DNA of 22,085 nucleotides from a virus (IMGVR_UViG_3300009034_000226:1-22085); one strand, 5' to 3'. Counted from the stretch's first letter, positions 378-18,711 are shown. Notes: a model not told the origin generated them from the letters alone. Made by a program: numbers and translations.

Positions 378-1739
378 TTATGAAGTAGTAATTTTTCCTG
401 TAATTCCAATTTTATGTAAAGCACCAGCATATTTAGCAGTAAAAGTTATTCCACTTAAATATCTTATGGCTTTTTCTGCCGGATCAACATCTTCTATATC
501 TGGAGTTGTTATAGTTGATTCATTTGGTACAAGTAAACCTCTATCAATCGATTCACCTTCGTTTAACCAATATTTAATAATACCTTCAATCAAACCTATC
601 CCAGCAGCAGTAAATGGTATTTTATCATTGTTTACCAATGCTGTAAAAATACCTTCCGACATTCTGGTTTGTAACCAATCAGTCCCACGTATAATATCTA
701 TGAATTCATCATTAACAACTATCGCTTCAGCAGAAATCATACTAACTCCACCAATTGTTTCATATATATTTCCTTTATCAGCTTTAATAGTAGCAACTTC
801 AGTTGTAGTTAACTCATCAGCAATAATACCAGTAAGAGATTTAAATTTCCATGTAAGTGATCCTGGATCTTTGGGTGCCTGACCACCAACCCAAGCTGCC
901 TCTGGAAAATTAGCATAATCCCCACTGTATAGATATACTGTTCTATCATAAGAAAGAGCTGTTAAACTTTTTAATGTATTGTCAGCTACTCCATTTTTAA
1001 CATCAGCTTCACCAGTACAAACAAAATATATCTTTAATTTAGTTTCTATTACAGCAGCCAATAACAATATATCGGCTTTTGTTCTTGTTGTTCCAATAAG
1101 AAAATACCAATTATCATCAGCAGCAATAATAGCATTAAGACCAACAGTCCAAGTTTCAACCGCTGATCCATATTGAGTCATTGTTGCTGTAGCAGCAGTA
1201 ACACCCGTTAAGCTAGATACATCAATTACAGTTACTCTGAAATCAGCAGCAGCATCTACGCCAGTAAATTCTATTGTATAACCAGTGCTATATAAACCCG
1301 TAACTGTAACTTCGGTTATACCAGATAAAGCTTCAATTGCGGTTTCTATGAGTGCCGTATCGTCATCTGCTGCATAGGTTATATTACCAGTTGTAACAGG
1401 AGTAGCATCACCAATACCAATATCTAACGTCCAAGTACCAGCAGAAGGTGTCCCTGTAAACGCCAATGTTGCTTTTGAGTTTACATCTTCAAGTTTTCTT
1501 CCAACTTTAAATTGAGGTGGTGATAATTCCTGACCCATAATTTTCAAAGCGGCTTTATAAAGATCATCCGTTATTAAAAAACCATCTGTTAACATATCCG
1601 CTGGATCAGTATAAGCGCGGACTCTATCTGGAAAATAGTAATGATCTCCCATCAAAAGAGGAGTTCCAAATCCAGTCCTAGTTATTTTAGCAGTCTCTCT
1701 TGTAATTGAAACATCTACAAAATCAGAAATTTGACTCAT
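378..1739 (-). CDS. Tail sheath protein, DUF3383 family, with inserted beta module
   Basis: The 453-residue protein starts MSQISDFVDVSITRETAKIT and continues RTGFGTPLLMGDH, the typical N-terminus of DUF3383 sheath-like proteins of contractile-tailed phages. Sheath subunits polymerise around the tail tube and contract on infection. The stretch from about residue 88 to 196 (KATLAFTGTPSAGTWTLDI to GSAVETW) is Thr/Ala/Gly-rich and beta-like; homologs can run straight from the KVGRK region to the IIAADDNWYFL region, so I read it as an inserted domain, similar in style to segments in two other virion proteins here. The C-terminal half (DYANFPEAAWVGGQAPKDPG, then GITFTAKYAGALHKIGITG) is the usual core. 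An AAGGAG site precedes the ATG. The gene lies between tail terminator and tube genes, the usual order. Confidence 0.9.
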   Translation of the reverse strand: MSQISDFVDVSITRETAKITRTGFGTPLLMGDHYYFPDRVRAYTDPADMLTDGFLITDDLYKAALKIMGQELSPPQFKVGRKLEDVNSKATLAFTGTPSAGTWTLDIGIGDATPVTTGNITYAADDDTALIETAIEALSGITEVTVTGLYSTGYTIEFTGVDAAADFRVTVIDVSSLTGVTAATATMTQYGSAVETWTVGLNAIIAADDNWYFLIGTTRTKADILLLAAVIETKLKIYFVCTGEADVKNGVADNTLKSLTALSYDRTVYLYSGDYANFPEAAWVGGQAPKDPGSLTWKFKSLTGIIADELTTTEVATIKADKGNIYETIGGVSMISAEAIVVNDEFIDIIRGTDWLQTRMSEGIFTALVNNDKIPFTAAGIGLIEGIIKYWLNEGESIDRGLLVPNESTITTPDIEDVDPAEKAIRYLSGITFTAKYAGALHKIGITGKITTS

Positions 1740-1800
1740 AATTTTTTCTCCTTTATATTATTATATATTTTTCTAACTTTGATAATTAATAGTATTATTA

Positions 1801-1809
1801 GTTATATCA
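1801..1809 (-). promoter_or_regulatory. Possible extended -10 promoter upstream of sheath gene
   Basis: Read on the minus strand this is TGATATAAC, one base from the TGATATAAT extended -10 elements seen at 15.95 kb. It lies in the 79-base gap before the sheath gene, the only sizeable gap among the tail genes. No convincing -35 is visible and the region is so AT-rich that chance matches are common. Confidence 0.25.
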
Positions 1810-1818
1810 TAATCTATA

Positions 1819-2322
1819 TTATGGTATTTCAATATCAATCCCATTTAATTCAATCTTTTGTATTTCGCCTGGAATATCATCGAACGCTTCTCCATAACTC
1901 ATGAATACATCTATATGAGATCTAAATTCCCATTCTGTCTCTATTAACGCACTTAAATCTGCTGGTCCATCATATCCCCAAAGAGCTAAACCTTTCAATT
2001 GTAATATTTCTAATTTACTTTCTAAATAAAAAGAATTTATTATTTTTTGCATTAGATTAAGATGATTATCATCTGCATATATATTTATACTTAATGTAAA
2101 TTTTTTAACAAAATTATATTCCCACGTATCGAGTGTTTTATATTGATGTTCCGCTCTATCACCAACAAGTGACGGCCCACCTAATATATTTAAAGTTACA
2201 TACGGTTTTGCAGGTCTCGGACTTCCAGGTTTATCCCATATAGCATTAACACCAACTCCTAAAGAGGCAACAGCCCAATCATAAATTGCATCTTCTTTTA
2301 CTTGATCTAGTCTATAACCCAT
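1819..2322 (-). CDS. Tail/neck terminator protein (LIC_12616 / gp12-like)
   Basis: This 167-residue protein has an N-terminal helix (VKEDAIYDWAVASLG), then IWDKPGSPRPAKPYVTLNIL, then alternating strands and helices (FTLSINIYADDNHLNLMQKI), ending in IDVFMSYGEAFDDIPGEIQ. This resembles the phage neck or tail terminator proteins annotated as LIC_12616 / gp12-like, where a 'pRP..pYv' segment and a late 'DV.f.y' strand are typical. Such proteins form the ring that caps the tail and joins it to the head. The position directly before the sheath gene fits. The ATG has an AGGAAAA site and the gene starts 1 base after the stop of the preceding head-closure-like gene, so translation is probably coupled. 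Confidence 0.7.
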   Translation of the reverse strand: MGYRLDQVKEDAIYDWAVASLGVGVNAIWDKPGSPRPAKPYVTLNILGGPSLVGDRAEHQYKTLDTWEYNFVKKFTLSINIYADDNHLNLMQKIINSFYLESKLEILQLKGLALWGYDGPADLSALIETEWEFRSHIDVFMSYGEAFDDIPGEIQKIELNGIDIEIP

Positions 2323-2323
2323 T

Positions 2324-2935
2324 TTATTTTCCTGTTAAAAAACCATATGCTTTATAATGAGAAAGACTATGAACGCTATAATCTTTGTCTTGTAATGCTT
2401 TATATTCTTTCGTAATATTCTCAACATCTTCAACTATACTTTGATTGACATCGACTGTTATTGTAAATGGAGTTCCTATTACATCCGCCATTATAGTATA
2501 CGTTCCATCAAGATTATCAGTTACTATTATTGGTTCTAATCCAGCCGATATTTGAGAAACCAATCCAGCAGCTATTAATATTGGATCTGTATTACTACCT
2601 GAATTATATGTAAATATTGTTCCATTAATGGTACACGTATAATCAGTGCTGGCCAATCCAGTATCTATTGTACAGGTATTTTGTTGAGCCGAATTATATT
2701 CTTTTCTTCTTAAAAAATCATCTGTTTTTATTTCACTCTCGGAATAAAATTTTAATGTCCCAGCCTTTCTGTTTCCTTCAGATAACAACAATAATTCATC
2801 ATCATTAATTGGTTGGACACTAGCATCTATAGTTGTTATAGAAGGACTTGATGCAATATAATGTCCTTTAACATAATCTTCATTGCCACCTGTGGGTCTT
2901 ATTAATACAACTTCTTCGTTTTTTATTAATCCCAT
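2324..2935 (-). CDS. Probable head-closure (stopper) protein with inserted beta module
   Basis: The protein (203 residues) can be read as a small head-closure fold split by an insert. The N-part (residues 1-75) has VVLIRPTGG, then TTIDASVQPINDDELLLLSEG and KFYSESEIKTDD, matching the pattern of SPP1 gp16-like stoppers: a hydrophobic strand, a 'QP.....L...G' turn, and a 'y.....i' strand. The C-part (about 173-203, EYKALQDKDYSVHSLSHYKA) supplies the usual last strands. Between them, residues about 79-172 form a Thr/Ile-rich module (TCTINGTIFTYNSGS) closely like the one in the cement protein at 5296-6069. No good ribosome site is visible; the ATG lies 1 base after the upstream stop, suggesting coupling. 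The function is inferred from position and pattern. Confidence 0.55.
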   Translation of the reverse strand: MGLIKNEEVVLIRPTGGNEDYVKGHYIASSPSITTIDASVQPINDDELLLLSEGNRKAGTLKFYSESEIKTDDFLRRKEYNSAQQNTCTIDTGLASTDYTCTINGTIFTYNSGSNTDPILIAAGLVSQISAGLEPIIVTDNLDGTYTIMADVIGTPFTITVDVNQSIVEDVENITKEYKALQDKDYSVHSLSHYKAYGFLTGK

Positions 2936-2936
2936 T

Positions 2937-3443
2937 TTATATTTTTGTAGTCATCGTTGGTTTAGGATTACCTTTACCAATTTTGTATGTTAAAGTACTA
3001 ACTATTTTCCCAGTTTCAATTAAAGGATGATCATGTTTCTTTCTTTTTATAGTTATTGGATGATTAGGTTTCGCTCTTTTATAAAAATCACTTAAAATAA
3101 ATTTTTTAATTCTTTCTGTCAATAAAATACCCATTTCATCTAATTTTTCATTCATTTTTATTTTTCCAAGAAGTACATCTCCAGCTCCATCTAGCATTTT
3201 TTTTATAATTAATTTAAGATCTTTATCAAAAACATATCTCATAAAAGATCTTTCTGGAATTGGATACAGTCTATTGCTTCTCGGTGGATCTCCAAATTCA
3301 TTTTCTTTTGCAATTGAAATTAATCCAATATCTTTAAATAATCCAATTTCGACAGTATTCCCATCAGTAACACTCATTTCCTTAATTCTTTTTACAAGAT
3401 TGATCCATTGAGTTTTTTGATCTATTAATGTTATGTCATACAT
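2937..3443 (-). CDS. HK97 gp10-like / virion morphogenesis protein (tail completion)
   Basis: The 168-residue protein shows the hallmarks of the gp10-like / Mu virion-morphogenesis group: 'EIGLFKD......AKENEFGDPPRSNRLYPIPERSFMR' in the first half, a helical middle, and 'FYKRAKPNHPITIKRKKHDH' followed by 'PLIETGKIVSTLTYKI' near the end. In that family the 'E.G....iP.RsF.r' and 'pLidTG.l..si.y.i' segments are conserved. These proteins complete the tail or head-tail joint. Its start overlaps the last 8 bases of the upstream DUF4054 gene and its stop lies 1 base before the next start. The sequence shows no insertion or truncation. Confidence 0.75.
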   Translation of the reverse strand: MYDITLIDQKTQWINLVKRIKEMSVTDGNTVEIGLFKDIGLISIAKENEFGDPPRSNRLYPIPERSFMRYVFDKDLKLIIKKMLDGAGDVLLGKIKMNEKLDEMGILLTERIKKFILSDFYKRAKPNHPITIKRKKHDHPLIETGKIVSTLTYKIGKGNPKPTMTTKI

Positions 3444-3810
3444 TAGGAATCACCGTAGAAACTTTTATAAGTATTTTATTTCTAATAGAAAGAAAAGTTC
3501 TTCCGTATCCAGTTCTATTATAATCAGCCTCAGATCCTCTGAGTTTCTGAGGCTGTGCATATTCTTTCATCACATCTCCAACTTTATCTTTAACAATTGG
3601 ACCACTGGCACTACTGAGGGTTTTATCGCTAATCAATGTAAGATGATGGGCTGCCAAATACCTAGCAGCTATTTCAGTTTTTAAACCAAAAACAGAAGTG
3701 CTAATTAAATTATCTACATCTGATAATATTATATTCCATACATTATCATCAGTTATACTTGATAATTCAGGAGCTATAAGTAAAATATTGGCTTTAGTAG
3801 TTAATGCCAT
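3436..3810 (-). CDS. DUF4054 head-tail adaptor protein
   Basis: The 124-residue protein fits DUF4054, a small helical head-tail connector of the gp6-like kind: an N-terminal 'ILLIAPELSSITDDNVWNII' region (family: pEF....d..i...i..a), a helical 'AARYLAAHHLTL' segment, then 'SGPIVKDKVGDVMKEYAQP' and 'RTGYGRTFLSIRNK' (family: 'G.v.sekvGdvsvsYa' and 'tpYGr.fl.lr'). Such adaptors form a ring beneath the portal and recruit the stopper. It begins 4 bases after the preceding gene and its end overlaps the next gene. The recognisable motifs and the gene order make the call fairly sure. Confidence 0.8.
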   Translation of the reverse strand: MALTTKANILLIAPELSSITDDNVWNIILSDVDNLISTSVFGLKTEIAARYLAAHHLTLISDKTLSSASGPIVKDKVGDVMKEYAQPQKLRGSEADYNRTGYGRTFLSIRNKILIKVSTVIPNV

Positions 3811-3814
3811 AATT

Positions 3815-4243
3815 TTAATTTTTTTCTTTTTTCTCTAAAGCCGCCTCAACTTCAGAAATTTCTTCTAATTTTGAATTTAATAATCGTGTTATTGCTGTTC
3901 TTGGTTTGTCTCTCTGTTTTTCTAATTCATAATACTCTTCAAGTTTTTTTCTTTCCATAGTATTTTCAATTAATTCACTCATTTCAGCAACTCTTAATTT
4001 AGAAATATCAACCTCATTTTCTTCTTCACCTATTTCATTTTTGGTTTCAAGATCAATCTTCGGCTGAAATACTTTAAGAAGAGTTTTGTAATAATCCATA
4101 TCATCACCGGCTGTTTTAATTATTGCAAGCCAAACTTCTTTCGATATATGATTTATTCCTGGTATAAATTTAAATAATTCTTGTTTCTTTTTGATTTTAT
4201 AAGGTAATGTTAAAGTATTTGGTTTATTATAAAAAATTATCAT
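3815..4243 (-). CDS. Small phage protein between capsid and connector genes, function unknown
   Basis: I do not recognise a characterised family. The first 50 residues include 'LFKFIPGINHISKEVWLAII', reminiscent of short phage modules with 'f.PG.neVp.evW', often found near capsid genes. From residue about 70 on it is strongly charged and helical (EIGEEENEVDISKLRVAEMS, then ELEKQRDKPRTAITRLL and EEISEVEAALEKKEKN), probably a coiled coil. The start has a GGGAG site 7 bases upstream. The position between the major capsid protein and the DUF4054 adaptor makes a role in head assembly or head-tail joining plausible, but this is inference from place only. Confidence 0.7.
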   Translation of the reverse strand: MIIFYNKPNTLTLPYKIKKKQELFKFIPGINHISKEVWLAIIKTAGDDMDYYKTLLKVFQPKIDLETKNEIGEEENEVDISKLRVAEMSELIENTMERKKLEEYYELEKQRDKPRTAITRLLNSKLEEISEVEAALEKKEKN

Positions 4244-4266
4244 TATTTTTCTCCCATCATTTTTGT

Positions 4267-4310
4267 TAAAATATTGGCAGGAATATTATATAATTCCCGC
4301 CAATATTTTA
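4267..4310 (-). terminator. Stem-loop after the major capsid gene
   Basis: Two 18-base arms (4267-4284 and 4293-4310) pair with one mismatch (a possible G-U pair in RNA) around an 8-base loop. The stem contains the only GC-rich run in the gap. On the coding (minus) strand it is followed by AACAAAAATG rather than a long T run, so it may act as a partial terminator or a 3' end stabiliser lowering or protecting transcript after the capsid gene. Confidence 0.65.
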
Positions 4311-4317
4311 GATTAAA

Positions 4318-5262
4318 TTATATACCAGTCATTATTAACATTGCAAGAGGATAACGAATTACTACTCCACCATTTCTTGCTTCTACAGGAACTACATATT
4401 CAAGATTTCTTTCTTGAATTGGATGAGTAATCATTTCAAGAGGAATCCTATTTTGAATTACCTCTTCATCCATTTCATAAAAAATCATACCATCTTTGGT
4501 TCCACCGACAAAAGCGGCCGTAAGTTGGTCAGATAACCAATCTATAGTTGTTAATCCAAATGCATTCCCAGGTTTAGTTATATATTCTAAAATAGTAAGG
4601 TCAGAAGTAGAAGCTCTTGGTGTGGTAGCTATTATATTATATTGTGGAATAGGAAGTAAAAGAGTATTGGCGGCATGAATTCCTTTACTTTGTGTTCTAA
4701 TTTGTCCAGTTCCAGTAGAAATATCAGCTATAATCTCATCAGGAGTTTTTAAAACCCAGGTCGTACCACCAACACCAGCAACTACAGCTTGGATAGGAAT
4801 ATTAGCATTGTTAAGGAAACCTATAATTCCATAAGTAGCATTACCATTCCATGCTATTTGACTTTCTTCTTCTCTTACAGCTCTTCTTGTAGCATCAGCT
4901 TTAATTTTATCTAATGGTTTATTGGCTAGGGCAGCAGCCCTAACTTCCTGTGTATTATATCCGAAAGAAGTACCAATAGTTTTAACTTTTTGAGAAAATT
5001 CTTGTGTAATTGCATCTGCTCTTGGAAGGTCGTCGGCATAATTAGCTATAATTTTAGCCATACCGAGTTTGGTTATCATACGATATGTAATAGTTTCTGC
5101 TCCAGGACTGTCTTCATTACTTACTGGTATTAATCTTCGATATTTTAATTCTTTAACTTTATATTCATAAAGCTTTGTCTCAATAGACTCTAATTCTCTT
5201 GCAAGAAATAAAGTTTCATTGGCATCTAAACGATGTTTTATTGCATCTAAACGAATAGACAT
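4318..5262 (-). CDS. Major capsid protein, DUF2184 type
   Basis: The 314-residue protein follows the DUF2184 major capsid pattern: N-terminal 'LFLARELESIETKLYEYKVK' followed by 'RRLIPVSNEDSPGAETITYR', then 'GMAKIIANYADDLPRADA', 'VKTIGTSFGYNTQEVRAAAL', 'ADATRRAVREEESQIAWNG', and 'YGIIGFLNNANI'. The family forms the icosahedral shell with an HK97-like fold. The length (about 310) is normal. A GGAGAAATAAATT ribosome site precedes ATG. It follows the cement and protease-scaffold genes and is followed by a stem-loop, consistent with high-level expression. No inserted module is seen here, unlike in three neighbours. Confidence 0.92.
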   Translation of the reverse strand: MSIRLDAIKHRLDANETLFLARELESIETKLYEYKVKELKYRRLIPVSNEDSPGAETITYRMITKLGMAKIIANYADDLPRADAITQEFSQKVKTIGTSFGYNTQEVRAAALANKPLDKIKADATRRAVREEESQIAWNGNATYGIIGFLNNANIPIQAVVAGVGGTTWVLKTPDEIIADISTGTGQIRTQSKGIHAANTLLLPIPQYNIIATTPRASTSDLTILEYITKPGNAFGLTTIDWLSDQLTAAFVGGTKDGMIFYEMDEEVIQNRIPLEMITHPIQERNLEYVVPVEARNGGVVIRYPLAMLIMTGI

Positions 5263-5295
5263 AATTTATTTCTCCTTTTTTATTAATCTATTCCA

Positions 5296-6069
5296 TTATG
5301 GAAGATTTAATTCAACAATTGATATACCAGCGGCAGAAGTTGTTTTTCTAAATGCTGCCCCAGGCAATATATCTGCATCGGAACCATCGGCATCACTTCT
5401 TACGGAACCTAAAGTTTCACCAGCACCCGCAACATGTCTAACATATACGGAACCACCATCAGCTACGGCATCCTCTGTTTGAACATAAATTCTACCTTTT
5501 CGCATAACGCTCATTGCAGATTCAAGAACATATCCACTACTTCCAGCACTTCCATAATTTTGTTCAATTGCTTGAGTCATTACAGTAAAACCCAAAGCAA
5601 TTTTTGCATCAGTAATATCAGCAGCAGCTATAGGTAATCTTGCTTTTTGATCATCCATCTGATCCCTAGAAACTACTATTCCAAATCCAATAGCGGCAGC
5701 ATTAGCAATTTGATTAGCTACAGTACAATTAGCAGTACCTACAACAGTAGCTGCTGTTCCAGGAGTATTACTTTCTACTGTAAAATATGTATTGGTTGCT
5801 GTATAATATGCTGTTACTGGCTCAGACCCAGCATTAATCAATGTTGCTACCGCATCAGCAATAAAAGCTTCATCTTGAGATCCACCAATTTCTGTCCAAG
5901 TAAAAGCAGTACCATTAATAGTACAAGTAGTCGTTGTATCAGCAGTAGTAACAGTAACTTTATCTAGCTGTTTAGAATAATTAGCTTTACTAATAATGTC
6001 GTTATTTACAAGATCAGCTAATTGTCCTGGTAATCCAACATCCATAAAATTTTGAACAGTTGTTTGCAT
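5296..6069 (-). CDS. Structural cement (capsid decoration) protein, gp24-like, with inserted beta module
   Basis: The N-terminus (MQTTVQNFMDVGLPGQLADL) and the C-terminal half ('GFGIVVSRDQMDD', then 'YVLESAMSVMRKGRIYVQTE', 'GGSVYVRHVAGAGETLGSVR', 'ILPGAAFRKTTSAAGISIVE') match the phage structural cement protein type. Cement proteins bind outside the mature capsid and stabilise it. Residues about 36-124 ('VTVTTADTTTTCTINGTAFT' to 'GTANCTVANQI') form a Thr/Ala-rich beta module closely resembling the insert at 2324-2935. Homologs often carry such a segment between the N-terminal arm and the core. A strong AGAGGAGG site precedes ATG. The gene lies between scaffold and major capsid protein, as usual. 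Confidence 0.85.
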   Translation of the reverse strand: MQTTVQNFMDVGLPGQLADLVNNDIISKANYSKQLDKVTVTTADTTTTCTINGTAFTWTEIGGSQDEAFIADAVATLINAGSEPVTAYYTATNTYFTVESNTPGTAATVVGTANCTVANQIANAAAIGFGIVVSRDQMDDQKARLPIAAADITDAKIALGFTVMTQAIEQNYGSAGSSGYVLESAMSVMRKGRIYVQTEDAVADGGSVYVRHVAGAGETLGSVRSDADGSDADILPGAAFRKTTSAAGISIVELNLP

Positions 6070-9983: not shown

Positions 9984-12449
9984 TTATTTTTGAGCTAAAG
10001 CATCAGATATTGATGTTGTTTTTTCCATATGTTGAGCATAAGCAGTACAATCAGCATCTTCATCTTCTGCACCAGATGGAAAAGTAGTTAAATTTCTTTC
10101 GTATACAGCTAAATATATTGCATTTTTCGGAAAAAAGACTCTTTCATTTTCACAATAACTAGCCATTGGAGTAGCTCTTATAAATTTATCTTGTCCTTTA
10201 CTTGGAACTTCTTTAAAGGGGATTTTAATACCTCCAATTTCATCATTTCCTTCTGATTGTTTTTTTAAAACTTTTCCTAATTTTTCATTTTCAATTAAAA
10301 TTTCTTTGGCATTATTTTTAAATGCAAAATTTAATATTATAGATAATGCTCTTTGATGAGGAATTCTATCATTAAAACGATCTAATAATAACCAAATTTT
10401 ATGTTTTTTTGAATATCCCCAGGCCAACATTCCGGTCGGATCATTTTTTTTCTTTTCTTCGAGAGCTGGATCAACCGTTACCGCTATTCTTAAACTATTT
10501 TTATATATTCTTATTGGTTCTTTTTGTTCAAACCTATAACAAAGAAAATCATATGTTCTTTTATCTCTTTCATAATATCTAAAAAATTCTTTCTTAAAAA
10601 GATTTCCACCTCTCGCCATTGGATTGCCTTGAAAAAGAGCTGTCCACCAATATGGTCCACTTATTCTTTTTTTATATTCAAGTCTTTTAACATTATATTC
10701 TTTAGGCCATAATGCTTCTCCTGGTTTTCTTCCCAATGGGTCATTTTTTTCAGCTATTGCTGGTAAATTAATATATTCATATTCAAATGGAAAATCTTCT
10801 TTTTCTCTATCAGCCTGTGCTACTAATCTTCCTATTAGATCATCGTCGTTCCATCTTGTATTATGACTTACAAGTCCATCTGCTATAAAACATTCTGTAT
10901 TATCAACTGTTACATCGTATACAAAATCTTTTTCTATTTTATTTATTTTTCTTATTTTAGATATAATAAATTCAGATTCAATTCTTTTTTTTGAAAAATG
11001 AAAGGTATAAGATTTTGACTCTATAACAGTCTTACTATGTGGTGGTTTATTTTTTTGAGTTCGTTTATATACATTTGTAACTTTATAGCCGCATGATCTT
11101 GCTAAATGTCTTAAATCTTCTAATAAATATTCATTACATAATTTAATACCATATCCTTCAAATCCTCTTTTTTTTATTTCCCAACCATCAGCAGTGCAAA
11201 ATCCTTTAATAAAAGAAAGTCTATTTTCTAGACATTCTTCAAATATAAAATCTGGTAATCTTTTTGTATGAGAATTTCCCTTAAGTCCATAATTTAAAAA
11301 CCATCTTCCAATATTTTGAATTTCAGTTCTGTAATAACCATAACCATAACTTTTTAAACTTTTATTAAATAATTTTAAAAATAATATTTTTGTAACGAAA
11401 TTTTTGTATTCTGATTTTTTTATTGCAACACAAGTTATTTTAGTATTTCTTTTATAATATTTATTTCTTTTTTTATCATACTGGGGACTTTTGTTAATAG
11501 TAATCCATCCATCACCAAACATAAATCCAAGTAATAATGCTTCTGTTTTAGTTATTTTATTATTTTTAAAATTATTATTTTGTAATATTGATATTAATTT
11601 ATCACCAGGCATTAATTCTCTAACACATTTCCATATTCTTTTTCCATTATCAAGTTCTACCAAGAAAGGATGCTTAGCATTTGCTTTTACAGTGTTATTA
11701 CCAGTTTTTATTTCATATATTTCATCTTTTTCATATTTAATCCAATTAAGAATTTTTCTTTTTACTATTTTATTTTTTTTATAAGTTAATATTTCATCAT
11801 TAATTTTAATATTTTTTAAATATTCCCATCTTCCATTAGACATTAAAATTTTAGTATCACCGGTCATACAAGCCAAAATCACTGTTAAAGAATTCGGATG
11901 TAATCTAGTTGCCACAATTGATTGCCACTTACTCCATATCTTATCTCTATAAGCTTTTGATTCAGCTTGCTCATCTCCTTTCATATAATCATCAATTACA
12001 AAAAGATCAGCACCAAAACCAGTTATACTTCCATCAATTCCAGCAGATCTAACACCACCACCAAGACTTGTATTCCAGGCAGCCCTATTATATAAATTTG
12101 GGTTGGGGTCTGCTCCAAATAAAATTGGACCCCATTTAGCAAATATGTTTTTTGCATAATCAGAATTTTCATCAGAAAGTTCCGCCGAATAAGAAGTTAA
12201 TATAACTCTATTTCGAGGGAAGTTTCCTAGATACCATGGAATGAAATGCTTTGATATTAAAAGAGTTTTACCATGTTGTGGTGGGATTGAAACCATTAAT
12301 AATTGAAATTTTTCACTTTTTACATTTAGTTTAGATTGTATTTTGTCAGCGATAAATTTTATATGTGGTGGACACTGCAAATTTGAACATATTTTTGGAA
12401 ATGCATAAAGATATTTTTTTGCTGTAGCTGAAAGTTGTTGCGGGGTCAT
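9984..12449 (-). CDS. terL: Large terminase subunit with in-frame intein
   Basis: TerL is the ATPase-nuclease that packages DNA. From the ATG at 12449 (GGAAAG site 7 bases upstream; an upstream in-frame TTG at 12464 is less likely) the product is 821 residues. Walker A is PPQHGKT (56-62), Walker B 'LFVIDDYM' (Asp153, Asp154), motif III 'TRWNDDDLIGRLV' starts at residue 531, and the RNase-H-like nuclease has 'VTVDPALEE' (Asp660), 'LLLDRFND' (Asp690) and 'GAEDEDADCTAY' (Asp798, Asp800). Residues 194-530 are an intein, listed separately; removing it leaves 484 residues, a normal TerL length, and joins 'TVILA' to 'TRWNDDD', the expected intact motif. A candidate small terminase lies upstream and the portal downstream. 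Confidence 0.95.
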   Translation of the reverse strand: MTPQQLSATAKKYLYAFPKICSNLQCPPHIKFIADKIQSKLNVKSEKFQLLMVSIPPQHGKTLLISKHFIPWYLGNFPRNRVILTSYSAELSDENSDYAKNIFAKWGPILFGADPNPNLYNRAAWNTSLGGGVRSAGIDGSITGFGADLFVIDDYMKGDEQAESKAYRDKIWSKWQSIVATRLHPNSLTVILACMTGDTKILMSNGRWEYLKNIKINDEILTYKKNKIVKRKILNWIKYEKDEIYEIKTGNNTVKANAKHPFLVELDNGKRIWKCVRELMPGDKLISILQNNNFKNNKITKTEALLLGFMFGDGWITINKSPQYDKKRNKYYKRNTKITCVAIKKSEYKNFVTKILFLKLFNKSLKSYGYGYYRTEIQNIGRWFLNYGLKGNSHTKRLPDFIFEECLENRLSFIKGFCTADGWEIKKRGFEGYGIKLCNEYLLEDLRHLARSCGYKVTNVYKRTQKNKPPHSKTVIESKSYTFHFSKKRIESEFIISKIRKINKIEKDFVYDVTVDNTECFIADGLVSHNTRWNDDDLIGRLVAQADREKEDFPFEYEYINLPAIAEKNDPLGRKPGEALWPKEYNVKRLEYKKRISGPYWWTALFQGNPMARGGNLFKKEFFRYYERDKRTYDFLCYRFEQKEPIRIYKNSLRIAVTVDPALEEKKKNDPTGMLAWGYSKKHKIWLLLDRFNDRIPHQRALSIILNFAFKNNAKEILIENEKLGKVLKKQSEGNDEIGGIKIPFKEVPSKGQDKFIRATPMASYCENERVFFPKNAIYLAVYERNLTTFPSGAEDEDADCTAYAQHMEKTTSISDALAQK
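10860..11870 (-). mobile_element. LAGLIDADG intein inside the terminase
   Basis: The 337-residue insert begins with Cys (CMTGDTKILMSNGRWEYLKN), has a block B-like 'VKANAKHPFLV' with the His but Asn in place of the usual Thr three residues before it, and ends with 'FVYDVTVDNTECFIADG' then LVSHN, followed by Thr as first C-extein residue. The catalytic Cys1, penultimate His and terminal Asn are all present, so protein splicing is expected. Two LAGLIDADG motifs, 'LLLGFMFGDG' and 'SFIKGFCTADG', keep their acidic residues, so the homing endonuclease is probably active or recently so. It spreads by cutting intein-less terL alleles. Its very Lys/Asn/Ile-rich composition matches the phage. Confidence 0.93.
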
Positions 12450-12450
12450 A

Positions 12451-12510
12451 TCATATCTTTCCAATATTTTTTATATATTTTTTTTCTAATGATTTAGCAA
12501 TTAATAACAT
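12451..12510 (-). CDS. 19-residue coupling frame before terminase
   Basis: MLLIAKSLEKKYIKNIGKI starts 6 bases after the upstream stop and its TGA lies 1 base before the terminase ATG. It has no ribosome site. It may only keep ribosomes on the message between the two genes, or be chance. Confidence 0.2.
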   Translation of the reverse strand: MLLIAKSLEKKYIKNIGKI

Positions 12511-14442: not shown

Positions 14443-15003
14443 TTATTTTTTTCCTATTTTTTTTAATTCTTTCATTGTAAACAAATTATATAAATTTAAT
14501 TTAACTTTTTTCAAATTTTCTTTACCACCTTGTTCTCTATCTATAACACAAAAAACATCTTTTATCACTGCCCCCTCTTTTCTTAATTTAATAACTGATT
14601 CTATAACCTGCCCACCAGTAGTAATGACATCTTCAATTATTATTAATTTTTCACCTTCAACAAGTGGTCCTTCGGCTAATTTTTGTGTTCCATATTCTTT
14701 TTTTTGTTTTCTAACAAAAACACATTTTAATCCAGTTAAATAAGATAACATAGTTGCTATTGGGATACCACCAGTTTCCAAACCAGCAAAAAGAGCAGGA
14801 TGAAAAATATGTCTTCTTTGTATTTCTCGTAATAAAAGTCTTGAAATAGAATATAATAAAAATGAATTTGTTTCAAATTGATATTTATCGAAATATTCAT
14901 TAGAAATAAGGCCTGATCTTAATTTAAATTCCCCGATAATATAACACTCTTTAAATATTATTTTTCCTATTTCTTCTTTTGTTAATAAACAATCTTCTTC
15001 CAT
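14443..15003 (-). CDS. pyrE: Orotate phosphoribosyltransferase
   Basis: This enzyme joins orotate to PRPP to make OMP, the fifth step of pyrimidine synthesis. The 186-residue protein has 'GEFKLRSGLISNEYFDKYQF' (residues 24-43, the orotate-binding 'F.L.SG..S..Y.D'), 'GLETGGIPIA' (74-83), the flexible loop 'VRKQKKEYGTQKLAEG' (97-112) with its lysines, and the PRPP loop 'LIIIEDVITTGGQV' (120-133). Length and motif order are those of bacterial PyrE, so it should be active. The start has a GGGAAAAT site. It stands alone among unknown small genes, so it is probably an auxiliary metabolic gene that raises UMP supply during infection. A different phosphoribosyltransferase specificity cannot be excluded. 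Confidence 0.88.
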   Translation of the reverse strand: MEEDCLLTKEEIGKIIFKECYIIGEFKLRSGLISNEYFDKYQFETNSFLLYSISRLLLREIQRRHIFHPALFAGLETGGIPIATMLSYLTGLKCVFVRKQKKEYGTQKLAEGPLVEGEKLIIIEDVITTGGQVIESVIKLRKEGAVIKDVFCVIDREQGGKENLKKVKLNLYNLFTMKELKKIGKK

Positions 15004-15586: not shown

Positions 15587-15694
15587 TTATTTGTTCCTAT
15601 TCAAAATAATATAAAATGGCCCATATTTGTGTTTTATAACTCATTTTAGAGTTAGGTAATATGATTATATATTTTAAGTATAAAATTAATGATT

Positions 15695-15895
15695 TTAGAG
15701 CTCTGAAGTGCTATTTTCTTTCTTTCTATAAAAACTATAACTAAAATTATCTAAATATTTGCCTTTTATAAAAATTCTTTTATTCATACATAATATTTTA
15801 TATAAAATACAACATTCTGCTTCTTTAATATTAATAATAGTTGGATAAGTAGTATTTTTATTAAAATTTTCACAATTATTACAACATTTTTTTAT
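15695..15895 (-). CDS. Possible Cys-containing small protein with ATA start
   Basis: An open frame of 66 codons reads KKCCNNCENFNKN after its first codon and continues 'AECCILYKILCMNKRIFIKG', with paired Cys near the N-terminus like other miniproteins here. A GGAGAG site lies 5 bases before the codon ATA, which would be the start; no ATG, GTG or TTG is in frame upstream of the Cys motif. The next in-frame ATG gives only the last 30 residues. Either a rare start is used, a base is missing in the A-run, or the gene is decayed. Confidence 0.35.
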   Translation of the reverse strand: MKKCCNNCENFNKNTTYPTIINIKEAECCILYKILCMNKRIFIKGKYLDNFSYSFYRKKENSTSEL

Positions 15896-15925
15896 TTTTT
15901 CTCTCCAATTTTATAATATTCATTC

Positions 15926-15957
15926 TATATTATATCATAAAATTGTGATATAATATA
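15926..15957. promoter_or_regulatory. Inverted repeat with back-to-back extended -10 promoters
   Basis: Arms 15926-15937 and 15946-15957 are perfect 12-base inverted repeats around an 8-base spacer. Each arm read outward contains TGATATAAT, an extended -10 element, so one drives the leftward genes and one the rightward genes. There is no clear -35. A dimeric regulator bound to the repeat would cover both promoters. Confidence 0.6.
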
Positions 15958-15975
15958 ATTTATAAATGATAATTA
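15948..15975 (+). repeat. Direct repeat, copy 1 (promoter/leader)
   Basis: This 28-base stretch matches 16373-16400 at 27 of 28 positions. Copy 1 spans the rightward -10 element and the start of the leader before the 117-residue gene. Confidence 0.6.
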
Positions 15976-16006
15976 TTTTTTTATTAACAAACAAGAGAGA
16001 AAAAAA

Positions 16007-18153: not shown

Positions 18154-18711
18154 ATGAATGATTTTCTTGAATTTTATAATAAAATTATAAATAAAGATAA
18201 AAAAACCTGGGATATCTTTATTTTTGAATACAGTAATCTTATTTATTATTATATTAGAAATACTTTTAGAAAATATAATTTTTCTCCCAGAAATGATGAA
18301 GCCAAGGAAATATTTAATGAAATAATTATTCGTCTTTTAAGAAAAAATTGTTTTACTTTAAAAAAACTTAAAAAAAAGAATAATCGTTCATTTATAAGTT
18401 ATTTAGACATAATAAGTTCTCATTTAACTATTGATTTTTTAAGAAAACAAAGAAAAAGTATTAATTTAAAAGATATTGAATACATTCCGGATTCTTTTGA
18501 TTTTATTAAAAATATTGAAAATGAAGAATTAATAAAAAAATTAGTAAAGAAAATACCCAATCAGCAACGCTATTTGTTTAAATTAATTTTTAAAAAAAAT
18601 TTTTCTCTTGACGATATTACTAAAATAATGTCTTTAAATAAAAATGCCATTGGACAATTAAAATTTAGAATGATTCATAATTTAAGAAAAATAAAAAAAG
18701 ATTTAATTTAG
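18154..18711 (+). CDS. RNA polymerase sigma-70-family factor (ECF-like)
   Basis: The 185-residue protein has the two-domain layout of ECF sigma factors. Region 2 spans about residues 20-102, with 'NEIIIRLLRKNCFTLKKLKK' and 'SFISYLDIISSHLTIDFLRK' then QRK, the characteristic 'f..yL..i..n...d.lRk..r' helix. Region 4 spans about 124-182, with 'EELIKKLVKKIPNQQRYLFK' and 'FSLDDITKIMSLNKNAIGQL' then 'KFRMIHNLRKIKKDL', a helix-turn-helix that reads -35 DNA. It would direct host RNA polymerase to a phage promoter class, plausibly the structural genes, which lack clear -35 boxes. Divergent sequence; a different regulator of sigma type is possible. The ribosome site is weak. Confidence 0.8.
   Translation: MNDFLEFYNKIINKDKKTWDIFIFEYSNLIYYYIRNTFRKYNFSPRNDEAKEIFNEIIIRLLRKNCFTLKKLKKKNNRSFISYLDIISSHLTIDFLRKQRKSINLKDIEYIPDSFDFIKNIENEELIKKLVKKIPNQQRYLFKLIFKKNFSLDDITKIMSLNKNAIGQLKFRMIHNLRKIKKDLI

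Follow-up and report, generated by a model that had tools for sequence, protein, structure and literature searches.

The available text of PMC12846349 describes the lateral domain of the tail sheath in Pseudomonas phage Adele, phiTE and Sf14 as a seven-stranded beta-sandwich with a flanking helix, which has no direct part in contraction and recurs in nozzle, auxiliary capsid, FliD and flagellin proteins. Since this distribution is already listed there, neither the domain nor its promiscuity is new. The accessible part of Evseev 2022 (PMC9230969) sorts sheaths into types ('type 2' being two-domain) and hypothesises adhesion or stabilisation for added domains; it also cites Fraser et al. 2006 for the proposal that Ig-like phage domains bind cell-surface carbohydrates weakly. 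The Pam3 sheath has two domains, and the larger sheaths of E217 and Pa193 have an additional flexible one (PMC11042391).

We analysed a 22,085-nucleotide stretch of viral DNA (IMGVR_UViG_3300009034_000226:1-22085), hereafter the window, for which a preliminary description had proposed that one beta-type module is inserted in three virion proteins, a tail sheath, a stopper and a cement protein, as a portable surface domain. Our main reading, to which we assign a probability of roughly 0.7, is that the three segments represent one structural class, a portable, outward-facing lateral domain placed in exposed loops and having a generic role at the particle's exterior.

The three host proteins and their modules

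The three reading frames proved to be correctly placed, all on the minus strand, and the proposed module boundaries were good to within about 10 residues (Table 1). The sheath belongs to DUF3383 (PF11863, 78 bits against a curated cut-off of 34.9) and has a solved homologue, 9zdk_S (E 1.4e-56). The stopper was assigned to the head-completion/stopper proteins by a phrog_939 match spanning residues 9-73; a Foldseek search with its model returned, among others, the phage 812 stopper (8qgr) and the Pam3 neck (8hdr), with a low overall TM because of the insert. The third protein is a member of Phage_cement (PF22758, 71.1 bits against a cut-off of 27), the best stretch, 101-255, lying mostly past the insert. 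A scan of close relatives with the window cement as the sole query gave no match, tblastn with the cement module alone matched no phage record, and phmmer with the protein and with its module matched no chain in the PDB. The end of the window falls inside the tail tube gene.

Table 1. Virion proteins of the window and the modules within them
Feature	Coordinates	Strand	Basis
Tail sheath, DUF3383 / phrog_205, 453 aa	378..1739	minus	PF11863 E 8e-22, phrog_205 E 8e-89
A-type module of sheath, residues ~88-192, lateral-domain site	1164..1478	minus	AF2; N-type there in relatives
Tail terminator, 167 aa, module-free in window	1819..2322	minus	PF23961 E 3e-18
Stopper / head-completion protein, 203 aa, N-type module inside	2324..2935	minus	phrog_939 head protein E 8.9e-10
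N-type module of stopper, residues ~84-172	2420..2686	minus	AF2 model elements, hhalign
Capsid cement protein, 257 aa, N-type insert after N-terminal arm	5296..6069	minus	PF22758 E 1.4e-19
N-type module of cement, residues ~36-120	5710..5964	minus	Pairwise and profile comparison

Elsewhere in the window, the terminase large subunit frame (9984-12464, minus strand, 826 aa) has an intein-like stretch in its ATPase region, running from 'CMTGDTKILMSNG...' to '...ECFIADGLVSHN'; the frame at 14443-15003 (minus) looks, from its sequence ('VIIEDVITTGGQ'), like an orotate phosphoribosyltransferase-type enzyme; and the frame at 18154-18711 (plus, 185 aa) appears sigma-factor-like by eye. GC and AT skew flip sign at about 15600-16000, where gene direction turns from minus to plus.

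We define three module types here: N, that of the stopper and the cement; A, that of the window's sheath; and B, a third type that occurs in relatives. The stopper and cement modules, about 80 residues each, had been said to share a common pattern, and they are beyond doubt homologous. Their Smith-Waterman score was 111, against 34 +/- 6 for shuffled sequences (z 12; 0 of 2000 shuffles as high), and hhalign of clade profiles gave P 2.7e-14, a value reached by none of 100 column shuffles, a somewhat generous null that keeps composition and loses beta-strand periodicity. Against the sheath modules of relatives the stopper module scored P 5e-30, and profile-profile comparison with the N modules of sheaths, stoppers and cements placed both the stopper and the cement module in the N-type family.

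AlphaFold2 modelled the whole stopper with a pLDDT of 92.1 (95-98 in the module blocks) and the sheath A module with a pLDDT of 88.9. In the stopper module, the model places strands at 85-90, 98-103 and 106-111, a helix at 118-131, and further strands at 136-140, 145-150 and 165-171. Both models have this layout, i.e., a strand pair, a short third strand, a helix and three strands (beta-beta-beta-alpha-beta-beta-beta), with one extra C-terminal strand in A. The two modules are predicted to be alike in element order, and the 'beta-type' label of the preliminary description is better replaced by beta-sandwich plus one helix.

Foldseek against the PDB linked the stopper model to sheaths (8kee, 101 columns at 2.7 A; 9cba, 8fop, 9khy), to T7-like nozzles (6r21/8i4m/8e4g), to 7ey9 and, lower in the list, to flagellin (8erm). 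The A-type model found a capsid protein (8giu), FliD (5h5v/5h5w), sheaths (8fop/8foy/9mt4/9hz7) and the Bxb1 tail tip (9d93), as well as major and minor tail proteins when compared with viral models. Targets common to both models were the Milano sheath (8fop, 8foy), 9d93 and the sheaths of Bas63 and 7-7-1, all at moderate scores (best A-type E 9e-3). The element order and the matches to 8kee, 9khy, 8i4m, 7ey9, 8erm, 8giu and 5h5w place the modules with the lateral beta-sandwich-plus-helix domain as it is described in the available text of PMC12846349.

Relation of the sheath module to the N type

When compared directly in pairs with the stopper and cement modules, the sheath module scored like shuffles, and its profile-profile comparison with the N type gave P 0.036-0.05, with 2 of 200 shuffles as high, leaving it outside that type. 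This lack of a significant direct match is what one would expect if the sheath module were unrelated to the other two and had merely converged on a similar fold. We consider such an origin rather unlikely, given that homologous sheaths hold an N-type module at exactly the place of the window's A-type, that the element order in the models is identical, that structural neighbours are held in common, and that the B type bridges A and N.

The bridge was found in both directions: B-type modules matched N-type sheath modules at P 2.7e-5 and A-type modules at P 1e-4, each in register and with none of 200 column shuffles reaching the score. Since B matches both the A type and the N-type sheath modules, it links A with N; and as B did not match the N set of the stopper (28 of 100 shuffles scored as high), the A-N tie passes through the sheath N modules. 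A B-N value of P 1.4e-15, obtained from an iterated B profile, was discarded as circular, N rows having been pulled in out of register, and was replaced by that of a clean B set. Common descent of A and N is not proven against the alternative that both converged on a common small fold. The kinship earlier proposed for the sheath module therefore stands on the shared site, the B bridge, the element order and the common PDB targets, and not on a direct sequence link; of the profile comparisons suggested for the three segments, that between stopper and cement succeeded and that of the sheath with N did not.

Distribution and history among relatives

Relatives were gathered by iterative searches of fetched loci, the loci being collected via the modules themselves. 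N-type modules turned up in sheaths, stoppers, cements and tail terminators, and also in a fibre-like protein of 1023 aa, in a phage nozzle and in the baseplate wedge of a Vibrio phage. Beyond the window, A-type modules occurred in further sheaths and in a terminator, as well as in a major tail protein (Rhodococcus), a minor tail protein (Mycobacterium) and a head-region protein (Microcystis). B-type modules were seen in relatives, in the cement, stopper, sheath and wedge. The class as a whole, a beta-sandwich with one alpha-helix and 80-105 residues, occurs in otherwise unrelated myophage virion proteins. On L031, 5482-8277 encodes a podovirus-type nozzle of 931 aa (Pfam model 794), residues 167-217 of which match the N-type profile.

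In the stopper and the cement, the module is indeed an insert. Stoppers without the N insert are mostly 105-138 aa long in the relatives, and they align on both sides of the insert with the 203-aa form of the window; module-free cements (L021, L023) have 163-164 aa, against 257 aa in the window. The L032 stopper (220 aa) has a B-type module elsewhere, at residues 31-121. Among cements, those of L016 and L032 have a B-type module after the N-terminal arm, at the position of the window's N, and the C-terminus is a second module site (N in L025, B in L028). Terminators with a module were found in L021, L023 and L025 (N) and in L043 (A); other relatives have, like the window, a terminator that lacks one. 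In L043, the terminator (531-1385) and the sheath (1405-2814) are adjacent and both A-type, and the neighbouring stopper is module-free.

For the sheath, however, the claim of an insert was not supported in the form proposed. All DUF3383 sheaths classified here have a module at the lateral site, N or A; the solved sheath 9zdk_S has an N-type module at 88-164, the site at which the window sheath has its extra domain of ~105 residues (with a placement relative to the tube taken from homologues); and the smaller Pam3 sheath (384 aa) aligns only from residue 227 of the window sheath onward. The sheath module is thus an old lateral domain of the family and not a private acquisition, and the proposed survey of homologues, which yielded module-free stoppers and cements, found no module-free DUF3383 sheath among those classified. 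L032 and a group of sheaths of 624-627 aa have three N/B domains in a row. In L057, L058, L059, L085, L089, L091, L092 and L093, the lateral modules of the 624-627-aa sheaths stand in tandem as N, B, N, and some of the contigs with such triple-module sheaths were binned in Chlamydiota or Verrucomicrobiota MAGs.

The baseplate wedge is a fourth carrier. In longer relatives (G001-G004), an A-type module lies in a protein of 505-522 aa, encoded about 7-8 kb past the sheath and identified as a baseplate J-like wedge (phrog_6); G005-G007, with N-type sheaths, have A in the wedge too. N-type wedges occur in L103 and in Vibrio phage eugene 12A10, and the wedge of the L032 phage has both N and B modules. 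L032 thus gives another virion in which cement, stopper, sheath and wedge all carry modules, its cement and stopper being of type B, not N. The modules of this distantly related phage lie in L032 4069-4731, 1008-1817 and 5278-7194 and in L105 1022-3022. Sheath, cement and baseplate wedge exchange types N, A and B at homologous sites; in stopper and terminator, different types occupy different sites. Across the relatives, the domain has been inserted, lost and swapped at a few fixed sites of the outer particle.

In a tree of sheath cores (modules removed), the A-type sheaths, including that of L043, formed one clade (100/98), and the group nearest to it was N-type (L018/L019/L024/L028; 94/96). 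The simplest reading would be a single change from N to A in the lineage of the window's sheath, with an unsure root. The stopper insert is limited to the window's clade and is missing in that clade's deepest branch, L043. In the module tree, the stopper modules all fell in one clade (97/98), as did the N-arm cement modules in another (100/97), with L019 and L024 included in the latter; hence the cement insert predates the stopper insert, and neither was recently copied from the other. Each goes back to one event, that of the stopper being confined to the window's clade and that of the cement being older.

A recent duplication inside this phage was rejected, since the two inserts each form an old clade of their own. 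A joint stopper-plus-cement module clade was not rejected (AU p 0.27), and support in the A-module tree was too low to place the sheath A-type as derived from the wedge A-type. Some type swaps could be divergence in place instead of replacement. Within the window's clade, the stopper insert and the A-type sheath co-occur; as this co-occurrence amounts to a single event in evolution and the sampling of loci went through the modules, no frequency or correlation is to be drawn from it.

Possible roles and comparison with known systems

We favour a generic exterior domain. The modules would be spliced into exposed loops of virion proteins and, by analogy with described lateral domains, would face outward in many copies on head, neck and tail, and probably on the baseplate (the last from relatives). 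They would likewise have no direct part in assembly or contraction, and the contacts they make, whether with surfaces or among themselves, may be weak and multivalent. That one site tolerates a swap of types fits such a generic domain, and the acceptance of three types there argues against a tight specific interface.

The main rival is particle stabilisation, in which the modules would act as a structural clamp, contacting neighbouring subunits of the capsid lattice, the neck ring and the sheath lattice and toughening the particle. We hold this to be possible, though short of likely. According to the available text of Evseev 2022 (PMC9230969), stabilisation is a possible role of added domains, and the extra sheath domain of phage 812 contacts its neighbours; the cement module adjoins the N-terminal arm, and the arm of E217 gp24 packs on a neighbouring subunit (PMC10329688). 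Purifying selection on the modules also agrees with a clamp. However, three sequence types replace each other at one site and relatives do without the module, which suggests that no specific conserved interface has been maintained.

Domains that bind receptors or glycans, and so fix or broaden the host range, could draw on many copies per virion, which would permit multivalent binding, and the weak carbohydrate binding proposed for Ig-like phage domains (via the available part of PMC9230969) offers a precedent. Nevertheless, we regard this role as unlikely. Mean identities within the window's clade, module against host part, were 57/52% for the stopper, 62/56% for the cement and 71/62% for the sheath, though in the closest stopper pairs the module was more variable than the host part, contrary to the average. 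On average, the modules evolve no faster than their carriers, which argues against a fast-evolving host-range or receptor-binding domain. Moreover, the most conserved columns across N-type modules are strand and turn residues, and curated carbohydrate-binding families gave no convincing match to the modules. Module conservation is compatible with weak generic adhesion or stabilisation. That the modules are mostly neutral passengers, an insertion-tolerant fold of little benefit that recombination has spread among virion genes, is very doubtful: their patchiness in stopper, cement and terminator and their repeated insertion at several sites would suit it, but wherever the stopper and cement genes of the window's clade are complete, their inserts are intact, and the close pairs show dN < dS.

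The generic exterior domain may be extended, tentatively, to virion-wide interchangeable cassettes, i.e., lateral domains at fixed permissive sites (cement, stopper, terminator, sheath, wedge) that are swapped by recombination of virion genes. An example would be the sheath passing from N to A while the stopper gained N, with A already in the wedge of the sister group. If this were true, the outer chemistry of the particle would change as a set, with the assembly core untouched. Whole-domain insertion is tolerated at the stopper loop, the terminator, the cement arm and C-terminus, the sheath and the wedge, and one domain class in several types fills these sites. The shared module also affects the annotation of phage structural genes; the tblastn matches of the stopper to 'tail sheath' records are due to the module alone. 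Since for one and the same protein there are natural relatives that have the module and others that lack it, the role of such extra domains becomes testable.

Pfam, NCBIfam and PHROGs hold no entry dedicated to the module, and no curated Pfam or NCBIfam domain covers it. Phage Ig-like domains (Fraser 2006, via the available part of PMC9230969) are likewise small beta-sandwiches promiscuously added to structural proteins; unlike them, the present modules have a helix and no Pfam Ig-like match above cut-off, bacterial Ig-like families (Big_2 and others) falling below the Pfam gathering score (best Big_2 E 0.0025, in 2 of 43 members; none for the window stopper). The outer domains of flagellin and FliD (Flagellin_IN, PF07196) are alike in their Foldseek matches (FliD 5h5v/5h5w, flagellin 8erm) and in faint profile matches to 2 of 43 members (best E 0.029, below the gathering score; no match in the window at E up to 10), but belong to a different biological machine. 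The Bxb1 tail tip cage protein gp23 (9d93) has A-type-like repeats (sequence E 1.2e-3, structure TM 0.65), yet it is a siphophage tail tip protein with three tandem copies, as opposed to the single insert here.

The lateral domain of Adele, phiTE and Sf14 shares with the present modules the beta-sandwich plus helix at the lateral site of the sheath, and several of the entries listed for it (9khy, 8i4m, 7ey9, 8giu, 5h5w and 8erm) also appear in our Foldseek results. It differs in its carriers, since stopper, tail terminator, cement and J wedge are not named among them in the available text of PMC12846349. That text and the accessible part of PMC9230969, consulted in a literature that covered few subscription journals, make no mention of stopper or terminator carriers, of carriage by several proteins of a single virion or of an exchange of types at homologous sites. 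To our knowledge, what is added here to the described lateral domain is its carriage by stopper and terminator, the exchange of three types at homologous sites, and a head-to-baseplate carriage that has been reached twice.
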